Below are positions 23,968-39,007 of a stretch of DNA of 64,000 bases, in pieces. Made by a program: the position numbers and the translations under genes. The notes beneath the pieces are model-generated. The model saw only the letters and a program-made list of their open reading frames with translations. It ran no database searches and was not told the DNA's origin. Position 1 is the first letter of the stretch; the number at the start of each line of letters is the position of its first letter. Origin of the DNA: Armatimonadota bacterium (lineage in GTDB: Bacteria > Armatimonadota > Fimbriimonadia > Fimbriimonadales > Fimbriimonadaceae); NCBI GenBank assembly GCA_037138755.1, contig JBAXHT010000001.1, positions 157,805 to 221,804 on the forward strand, written 5' to 3'.

Positions 23968-23980
23968 GTCCAAGTTGGGA

Positions 23981-24091
23981 CACTGGTAAGCAGATTCTCA
24001 GAATCCCCAAGCGGTTCCCGAGCGGTCTTTCCAGCGCAGGGTACCGAGCTCTCGGGGTGCCTGTTTATCTCGCCCACGGCAGTTGCTAGCC
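23981..24091 (+). repeat. RAYT-associated structured repeat, degenerate copy C
   Basis: The left end, CACTGGTAAGC followed by the small palindrome AGATTCTCAGAATC, is identical over 25 bp to the copy at 25526. The right end (TTTATCTCGCCCACGGCAGTTGCTAGCC) is a diverged form of the family's TTACCCCGCCCACGCAAGTGGCTCGCC end, given here in two parts: TTTATCTCGCCCAC then GGCAGTTGCTAGCC. The inner right arm has decayed (GGGTACCGAG), so the long stem no longer closes properly. It lies 0.9 kb from the transposase gene. Confidence 0.6.
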
Positions 24092-24279
24092 GTTGCCATC
24101 AACCACCTGCCGTGAAGCGCCACCAACCCAGGCAAACCTTCGACCAAACAGCAAAATGAGTAAACCCTACAGGTCTAGCGTGTGCCGAAAATCGGTACTA
24201 ATCACTACTGCGGGAGACACGCGACTGGTGGGAATCCTTCGCAATCCCTCTTAATCTGGGTTTGATGATTCGTTCGCTG
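24092..24279. other. Gene-free stretch beside the repeat
   Basis: With the preceding repeats this makes a gene-free region of about 340 bp (23938-24279). This part shows no convincing open frame, ribosome-binding site or strong hairpin. Confidence 0.5.
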
Positions 24280-24830: not shown

Positions 24831-24832
24831 GC

Positions 24833-24957
24833 GGCGAGCCACTTGCGTGGGCGGCGAGCCACTTGCGTGGGCGGGGTAAGCAGAAGGGGATGGGGTGGCA
24901 CTGTCAAGCGACCAAACGCCGAGGACTTTCAACCGCCCGCAAACAAGCTTGTCAGTG
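24833..24957 (-). repeat. RAYT-associated structured repeat, copy A (downstream of the transposase)
   Basis: Read on the minus strand, left arm CACTGACAAGC (24957-24947) pairs with GCTTGACAGTG (24909-24899): 10 of 11 positions, with a central A-A mismatch and a 37-nt loop. The conserved tail follows: GTGCCACCCC, then CTTCTGCTTACCCCG, then CCCACGCAAGTGGCTCGCC with a small CCAC-GCAA-GTGG hairpin. The last 20 bp are tandemly duplicated (24831-24850 and 24851-24870). It begins 18 bp after the transposase stop, in the orientation opposite to copy B. Confidence 0.75.
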
Positions 24958-24975
24958 AACAGCCTTCCGCCCATG

Positions 24976-25479
24976 CTACCAACTCCTATCCACCTCAATC
25001 TCTCCTGCTTCATCGAGAAGAATCGACCTAGCAGATGACCACCGATACTCCATGATATCAGAGCAAAGCCCTTTCCGAACGGGATTGAAATGAATGTAGT
25101 TGATAGCATTCGCCCGAGCCTCCTCGGTAAAGATGTTTCGATCATGGCCGCCGCCCGGTTCCCATAGAACGTCTTGGATCAATCCAGCAATCAGCGCCCT
25201 GCGAGATACGCCCTGCTTGATGGACTTAAGAATGTCCGCGATCTTGTAAGTCTCGCGAGAGGGCCGAATCAGCAAATGGACATGGTCGGGCATAAACACA
25301 TAAGCAAGCACAGTAAAGCCCTGCGTAGTCCCCGCCTTCGAAATCGCCCCTGCGAGCCACAGACAGATCTGTTCGTTCAACAGATGCGGACTCCTCTTCC
25401 GAGTGCTGAACGTCAGCATATGAGAATGCCCCGGGATGTCCCTCGCCTCCCGACGCTTATACTTTTTCTCCGGCTGCAT
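24976..25479 (-). CDS. REP-associated tyrosine transposase (RAYT, IS200-like Y1 family)
   Basis: A 167-residue HUH-type nuclease. Motifs are HSHMLTFSTRKRS at residues 18-30, YVFMPDHVHLLI with the HVH metal pair at 66-68, and YIHFNPVRKGL with the catalytic Tyr at 128. The terminal EYRWSSA at 144-150 follows. The Tyr-containing YI-NPV signature and the single-copy setting between inverted repeats are features of domesticated RAYT proteins rather than mobile IS200 elements. Copy B of the repeat lies 46 bp upstream and copy A 18 bp downstream, in opposite orientations. It is therefore expected to bind and cleave one strand of these repeats. No accessory TnpB or IscB gene is present, and the reading frame is intact. 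Confidence 0.93.
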   Translation of the reverse strand: MQPEKKYKRREARDIPGHSHMLTFSTRKRSPHLLNEQICLWLAGAISKAGTTQGFTVLAYVFMPDHVHLLIRPSRETYKIADILKSIKQGVSRRALIAGLIQDVLWEPGGGHDRNIFTEEARANAINYIHFNPVRKGLCSDIMEYRWSSARSILLDEAGEIEVDRSW

Positions 25480-25525
25480 GAGGCATTGGCGAGTTGACTA
25501 AGTCCTCGGTGATTCCAGCTTCGGA

Positions 25526-25628
25526 CACTGGTAAGCAGATTCTCAGAATCTCGAAGTAGTCACTCAGCGGGCTTACCAGTGCCACCCCTGCCTACTTCTG
25601 CTTACCCCGCCCACGCTAGTGGCTCGCC
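25526..25628 (+). repeat. RAYT-associated structured repeat, copy B (upstream of the transposase)
   Basis: The perfect 11-bp inverted repeat CACTGGTAAGC (25526-25536) / GCTTACCAGTG (25571-25581) encloses a 34-nt loop that itself contains the palindrome AGATTCT-C-AGAATCT. The tail then reads GCCACCCC, CTTCTGCTTACCCCG, CCCACGCTAGTGGCTCGCC. It is the best-preserved copy and lies directly upstream of the transposase start. Confidence 0.8.
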
Positions 25629-26197
25629 GATACAGACTTTCTGGCTCTCATCACAAGTACCTTCCGCCAAGTATAACAAGCAAACCTACTTTTCGGAAGT
25701 GCCTACGCGCAAATTAACACAATTTTTTGCGCCAGCCAGAACTGCTGATAACAGAGCATGACAAAGCTAAGACCTTTTGGTACCCTTCACTCCTCGGCCG
25801 CCGCGCCGAAATCCGCTCCGAGCCAAACTCTCACCCCAAACAGCAAAAGCCGAAATCCGATAAGCGAAATTTCATGGTTGACAAAACTGCGTTTTCATCG
25901 CCTAGTAAGTGATGAAACAAATTCTGTGGCGTACGAGGTGCCAGTCGCGCTTTCGCTTCCGCATAGAATCAACTTCAAACCTAGCCAACCATCTGACCGC
26001 CGATCTATCCGCCCGCAAAGCATTGACGGCTAAAGGGGCCAAAACGGGATCCAAACTTGTCCCCACCCTTCCCCACTTACCGGCCAAATCGGAACACTCG
26101 TTGAACCTAAATTCCCCACTTCCCCACGTCACTTCTCTCTCCCCCAATTGGTACAGCATTCTCGAAAAGTGATCCGCGATCGTCCAGAAGCGCACCC
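25629..26197. other. Gene-free accessory stretch
   Basis: These 569 bp downstream of repeat copy B hold several short overlapping open frames on both strands. None has a ribosome-binding site, a recognisable domain or consistent codon use. The first 120 bp are AT-rich. I see no element here that I can name. Confidence 0.5.
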
Positions 26198-38410: not shown

Positions 38411-38754
38411 GCGTTCTTCAGTTTCGGAGAGAACTGCGACGCATTCTGGTGGGGACATTGGGTTCAAATAGGTGCTCGTTTTTCAATTTGGGTGGGGACA
38501 AGTGGGGACAGGCTTCTGAGGTGAGAGTTGGGAGGCTTGTACACCGCTTTGCACGGGCTTCGGCGGGGGCAGGTGAGATGCGTCTATTTCTTGGGGACGT
38601 ACCGCCCTGACGCAGCCGGGATCTTCGACGCGCGAGTGTAAAGAATTTTTGATCATCACCTTGTAGGCGAAGTTTCGGGGGGTTTGTCAACCTTCTCGTT
38701 GGGAGTTGGGGTTGTTGAACTTCTATCCAAAGCTCTGACTGCTCCAAGTTGGTT
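38411..38754. other. Gene-free stretch upstream of repeat copy D
   Basis: No convincing gene. It contains a tandem TGGGGACAAG/TGGGGACAGG at 38491-38511, and a 12-mer CGTACCGCCCTG that also occurs at 22236. Together with the repeat that follows, the gene-free region covers 38411-39022. Confidence 0.5.
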
Positions 38755-38856
38755 CACTGGTAACCTGGCTCGGTGAGGGCGTCGAGTTGTTCTGGGCGCG
38801 GTTACCAGTGCCACCCCAGTTACTTTTGCTTACTCAGCCCACGCAAGTGTCTCGCC
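38755..38856 (+). repeat. RAYT-associated structured repeat, copy D
   Basis: The perfect 11-bp inverted repeat CACTGGTAACC (38755-38765) / GGTTACCAGTG (38800-38810) encloses a 34-nt loop. The conserved tail follows (GCCACCCC, CTTTTGCTTACTC, CCCACGCAAGTGTCTCGCC). Compared with copy B, the tenth pair has changed from G-C to C-G on both arms. It lies 13 kb from the transposase gene, in a gene-free region. Confidence 0.75.
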
Positions 38857-39007
38857 GGTGGTGACCCCGGACTGAGTGACTTCGACGGGCGGAAGTTGAT
38901 GCTCCAGCATCGGCAAGGCGAGAAGCGCGGTCATCGTGTTTCCATCATACAGCAAGAGTGCTCAGCGCGGTGTTTGCGTGTGAGGTTATCGGAGTGTAGT
39001 ACGTTTT

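Follow-up and report, generated by a model that had tools for sequence, protein, structure and literature searches.

A RAYT gene and its two inverted structured repeats appear to move as one unit in relatives of Fimbriimonas

We analyzed a 64,000-nucleotide stretch of DNA (the window) from an Armatimonadota genome, in which a RAYT gene lies between two copies, A and B, of a structured repeat (Table 1). The outer 35 nt of copies A and B are inverted with respect to each other at 97% identity, and further inverted blocks lie inside. An initial annotation of this DNA had described inverted repeat copies on either side of a RAYT gene, an arrangement that our comparison bears out. The annotation placed the start of the feature at 24833; the framing is real, but this position belongs to a 20-bp duplicate, and copy A begins at 24852. 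The window also contains a solo repeat, copy D, and a decayed copy.

Table 1. Positions of the RAYT unit and of repeat copies in the window (C1 coordinates refer to the contig)
Feature	Position	Strand	Basis
Complete unit, left end (copy B)-RAYT-right end (copy A), 778 bp	24852..25629	-	Inverted framing repeats; same architecture duplicated whole, or deleted internally, in relatives
RAYT, Y1/HUH transposase, 167 aa	24976..25479	-	HVH 66-68, Tyr128, Asn132; ORF intact
Copy A, right end, type II	24852..24964	+	Covariance model match, 118.2 bits
Copy B, left end, type I	25519..25629 (C1:183323-183433)	-	Covariance model match, 97.5 bits
Outer hairpin CCAC-TTGC-GTGG, copy A	24859..24870	+	Sequence; 92-94% of cells paired across copies
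GTGG head of inner REP, copy A	24895..24898	+	Sequence; similar heads precede hairpins adjoining related RAYTs
11-bp stem 5′ arm, copy A, CACTGTCAAGC	24899..24909	+	Covariation
11-bp stem 3′ arm, copy A, GCTTGTCAGTG	24947..24957	+	Covariation
11-bp stem 5′ arm, copy B, CACTGGTAAGC	25571..25581	-	Inverted blocks and 13-copy alignment
11-bp stem 3′ arm, copy B, GCTTACCAGTG	25526..25536	-	Inverted blocks and 13-copy alignment
Extra 20-bp direct duplicate of copy A outer end	24832..24851	+	Pattern search and self-comparison
Solo repeat copy D, stem CACTGGTAACC/GGTTACCAGTG	38748..38857 (C1:196552-196661)	-	Covariance model, 102.7 bits
Weak, decayed repeat copy	23974..24092 (C1:181778-181896)	-	Covariance model, 24 bits

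In profile searches, the protein scored 92.1 bits against NCBIfam REP_Tyr_transpos (curated cut-off 80) and also exceeded the Pfam Y1_Tnp cut-off, while the IS200 profile gave 25.7 bits, below its cut-off of 55. The open reading frame and these family scores confirm the intact Y1 transposase of the initial annotation, with HVH at residues 66-68 and Tyr128 within YIHFNPV, a motif of the form Y---NP. In 18 homologs, H66, H68, Y128, and N132, which lies four residues past the tyrosine, were invariant. The C terminus follows about 40 residues after Tyr128. By sequence, the closest solved relative is 4er8, TnpA-REP with a bound REP hairpin; 4er8 was also the best PDB fold match of an AlphaFold model (pLDDT 91.8) of the protein, with E 1.6e-9 and TM 0.74. 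By profile score, HUH and Tyr motif, and fold, the window gene is a member of the RAYT/TnpA-REP family. Elsewhere in the window's genome (L025, G000:C1:1833464-1833769), a RAYT-like domain that scores above the RAYT cut-off lies within a 507-aa open frame, possibly a fusion.

The repeat is about 112 bp long. Read inward from the outer end, it consists of an outer module of about 35 bp, CGGCGAGCCACTTGCGTGGGCGGGGTAAGCAGAAG, followed by an inner GTGG and, directly after it, a stem that encloses a loop of about 34-40 nt. In a 13-copy alignment, the 11-bp stem pairs columns 49-59 with columns 97-107, and five pairs are changed on both sides. Covariation was again found at five pairs in a second alignment of 32 copies, consisting of 31 previously unused copies and copy A as anchor; this alignment contained 39 double-change cells, compared to 11.3 in shuffles, and 92% of its cells were paired, compared to 22-39% for slid structures. 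The outer CCAC-TNGC-GTGG hairpin is well preserved and so nearly invariant that covariation is uninformative about it. One compensated pair in this hairpin, TCAC...GTGA, occurs at the left end of the G003 derivatives described below. Since folding energies of single-copy DNA were unremarkable for most copies (z-scores +1.24 to -2.36), we relied on the comparative evidence. An Rfam search with the repeat returned no match even at E<=1, and no GGGGWSAS motif was seen by eye in copies A or B.

GTGG stands directly before the CACTGGTAAGC...GCTTACCAGTG hairpin, as the GT[AG]G head does in a REP. The repeat is best understood as two joined parts, a GTGG-headed REP with a long-loop hairpin and an outer module that marks where the unit ends. 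The module is clearly seen in only part of the Fimbriimonas-like genus to which the window belongs. RAYT homologs in named genomes of Planctomycetota, Zixibacteria, and Armatimonadota are often framed by hairpins with GTGGC or GTGCC heads, and in 49 of the 74 named RAYT loci examined, which come from several phyla, the inverted flanks exceeded the 99th percentile of mismatched flank pairs. Loops in the hairpins adjoining related RAYTs range from 2 to >50 nt, the long ones measuring about 20-55 nt. The initial annotation had taken a large and complex repeat (105-125 bp, with an 11-bp stem) as the sign of a distinct system, provided that copies exist genome-wide. The length and the stem held up, but size alone is insufficient, and we dropped it as a distinguishing mark because long-looped hairpins adjoin related RAYTs too.

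Two variant arrangements were seen in other genomes. A RAYT at L148 (G010:C49) adjoins GTGGCACTGGTACGC-type repeats in tandem, a BIME-like array. Three copies in G016 (L169:1216-1274, L170:1616-1674, and L170:2005-2063) combine the outer module with another inner sequence, TTGATTTAGCCTGCGGGATCGAGGATCC, and may represent a separate element family that has this border in common.

The initial annotation proposed searching the genome for further copies and checking whether they are biased toward intergenic sites and track the presence of the RAYT. The pattern AGCCACTNGCGTGGGCGGGG matched the genome 21 times at <=3 mismatches, compared to one match for the reversed control, and a longer form of it matched the window four times (0.00 expected). 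A covariance model built from 13 copies gave 38 genome matches at E<=1, including a few that are weak or are palindrome echoes on the opposite strand. About 30 copies beyond the framing pair were found in this way, dispersed and many of them solo, but not hundreds. The copies are mostly intergenic: of 26 copy centers, five fell within long ORFs, compared to 68% of flanking bases.

Our comparisons used draft genome assemblies, among them several MAGs. Covariance model matches occurred in nine of 61 genomes: 32 in the window's genome (G000), 41 in G003, 24 in G016, 22 in G009, 12 in G001, and 2 each in G002, G010, G050, and G052. Several full-length close RAYTs were present in each of G003, G010, and G050. 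Within the genus, which named near matches place near Fimbriimonas, five of the seven genomes with repeats had a close RAYT or its remnant, compared to one of the 13 without repeats (20 genomes; one-sided Fisher ~0.007, calculated by hand). The remaining genomes were two with repeats alone, G001 and G016, and 12 with neither; in G011, a fairly close RAYT occurs but no repeats do. The 12 copies in G001 and 24 in G016, where a close RAYT is missing, fit relics that persist after loss, yet they weaken a strict link. The association between repeats and RAYT is real but not strict, a mixed outcome on the refutation criterion of the initial annotation. Close RAYT homologs were not found on plasmids, which yielded only remote RAYTs of about 27-31% identity. 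In two different Planctomycetota/Phycisphaerales genomes, RAYT units are 97% identical over 717 bp (L194 and L200), which suggests recent transfer or shared ancestry.

Whole units have been duplicated in relatives. Two units in G050 are 95% identical over 810 bp (L158/L159), and two in G003 are 94% identical over 709 bp (L129/L130); the members of each pair occupy different sites. In both pairs, identity stops at the outer ends and the flanks are unrelated; in G003, one of the two left ends falls past a contig break, and only the right border is visible in both copies. G003 also carries at least 13 copies of a derivative of ~415 bp at different sites, and all 13 have the same deletion junction. 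These derivatives align to both ends of the RAYT unit on contig C15 across one deletion of about 346 bp and are, on this alignment, MITEs made from a RAYT unit. Because one shared deletion was followed by dispersal to different sites, both ends must travel together. The MITEs average 82% identity, indicating that most of their movement was not recent. Two derivatives in G009 have a common deletion, distinct from that in G003, and retain the two ends along with the final ~45 codons; a similar derivative is found in the window's genome (C3:1556-1957).

Only one intact unit was assembled in the window's genome. The ends of contigs C4 and C5 have exactly 55 nt in common, counted from the first base of the repeat, and the starts of C3 and C5 likewise have exactly 55 nt of the other end in common. 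From these termini we infer two further near-identical units that collapsed in the assembly graph, their middle remaining unassembled. The contig breaks at the C4 end, both C5 ends, and the C3 start (L007, L009, L014, and L015) fall exactly at unit ends, and the 40-kb C5 is probably flanked by two near-identical units that share one orientation. No target motif was visible by eye, the bases to the left of the repeat being unconserved. No target duplication was seen adjoining the units inspected, and no empty site was found, as joining the C4, C5, and C3 flanks gave no clear restored gene. As judged from these copies, the whole package of end, RAYT, and end, ~0.8 kb in length, appears to move and to have spawned MITE-like derivatives, a feature that the initial annotation had not noticed.

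Repeats and MITEs often lie inside or against the end of another copy, as at 24832-24876 in the window, at L044:1446-1610, and at L296, L299, and L171. The element behaves as if it preferred its own ends as targets.

We weighed these observations against the published view of an ordinary REPtron (PMC6006769; PMC2817692), in which the RAYT is fixed and domesticated, only single repeats spread in trans, and framing is incidental to mobility. Many copies in the genome are indeed solo and mostly intergenic, which fits this view. However, duplicates of whole units whose identity ends at the outer ends need both ends together, and 13 derivatives that have one internal deletion in common and keep both ends require that the ends act jointly; we therefore consider a fixed RAYT unlikely. 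Another possibility is that the unit is moved by a different, unrelated transposase that reads terminal inverted repeats. Such repeats and MITEs are typical of DDE elements, and a close RAYT is missing from G001 and G016 despite their repeats. Yet no target duplication adjoins the inspected units, every unit encloses a RAYT or what remains of one, and stem sequences differ between RAYT lineages within one genome, which makes an outside enzyme less probable still. Least credible, in our judgment, is that the repeat is mainly an RNA element, such as a terminator or regulatory RNA, that flanks both sides of the RAYT for transcript control. A covarying stem would fold in RNA too, but the repeat has no Rfam match, it forms the borders of duplicated units, and its orientation is opposite on the two sides.

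We therefore favor, with good though not full confidence, the view that the two inverted structured repeats are the termini of a single transposing unit with the RAYT gene inside, which would make the whole a self-sufficient mobile element. Comparison of the copies establishes the sharp outer ends, the spread of units and derivatives, and the covarying hairpin behind the GTGG head. By analogy with its relatives TnpA-REP and TnpA-IS200, the RAYT may act on single-stranded DNA, where it would recognize the GTGG-headed hairpin at each end; Tyr128 would cleave near the outer end, and the unit would be rejoined elsewhere. MITEs and solo repeats could be served likewise in trans. Because its ends are inverted, the single-stranded unit could fold end to end into a giant hairpin, an autonomous REPIN, in which both cleavage sites meet. 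TnpA-REP cuts single-stranded REPs, with the head tetranucleotide helping to choose the site, and reportedly processes REP while leaving its inverse unprocessed (PMC8266576). Given this preference, our model must still account for two inverted ends.

RAYTs are usually presented as domesticated and immobile. Those of this clade bear classical transposon marks: several copies per genome, near-identical units at different sites, and one-deletion MITEs that keep both ends. The clade may stand between IS200 elements and domesticated REP systems as an intermediate form, and it touches the open questions of how REP repeats are dispersed and why genomes keep their RAYT genes. Unit, MITE, and solo end are natural substrates for studying how a single-strand transposase handles inverted ends. 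A bolder proposal, which we hold only tentatively and with some doubt, is that this clade's RAYT units are living transposons, built in a way not described for Y1 enzymes. They would have two inverted ends, each with a GTGG hairpin and an outer border module, and would be excised and inserted as one folded single strand; as autonomous parents of REP-like repeats and MITEs, they would bridge IS200 elements and domesticated RAYTs.

Several known systems resemble the window unit in part. Like IS200/IS605 elements such as IS608 and ISDra2, it combines a Y1/HUH enzyme with subterminal hairpins, the lack of a visible target duplication, and multi-copy mobility. In contrast to them, it has terminal inverted repeats, its RAYT has Y---NP rather than Y---Q, and it contains no tnpB. 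Single-strand cleavage and a circular intermediate are further traits of IS200/IS605 elements. In REPINs, too, two hairpin repeats stand inverted to each other and are believed to fold together into one mobile single strand (Bertels and Rainey, 2011, PMC3116915), but the window-type pair encloses a transposase gene or remnant.

REPtrons and their TnpA-REP share with the window unit a RAYT, two inverted hairpin repeats with GT[AG]G heads, and dispersed intergenic copies (PMC2817692; PMC6006769). In published descriptions, REPs measure about 21-65 nt and a REPtron does not transpose as a whole (Nunvar et al., 2010, PMC2817692; Quentin et al., 2018, PMC6006769); the cognate REPs are dispersed, mostly intergenic, and often present in >100 copies. 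The window ends are longer, at ~112 bp, their loops span about 34-40 nt, and in relatives both units and MITEs have spread. Nunvar et al. found no multiple RAYT copies (PMC2817692). In TIRtrons, or TIRYTs, RAYT-like genes carry long inverted repeats on either side, and the repeat families are moderately abundant (Di Nocera et al., 2013, PMC3733652). As in the window unit, their terminal inverted repeats are long, some are partly self-complementary, and dimers and clusters occur (PMC3733652); the window unit has TIRtron framing, with its 35-nt outer arms at 97% and inner inverted blocks. Unlike TIRtrons, its repeat consists of a GTGG-headed covarying hairpin and an outer module, and the copies in relatives are evidence that the complete unit and its derivatives have moved. 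Most TIRYTs belong to subclass 2.1 and have a C-terminal HTH domain (PMC6006769), for which the 167-aa window RAYT is too short in full form, and GGGGWSAS was not seen by eye in copies A or B; both features are typical but not universal. On sequence grounds, the window case belongs with the known TIRtrons and REPtrons, to which it adds evidence of unit mobility and of MITEs.
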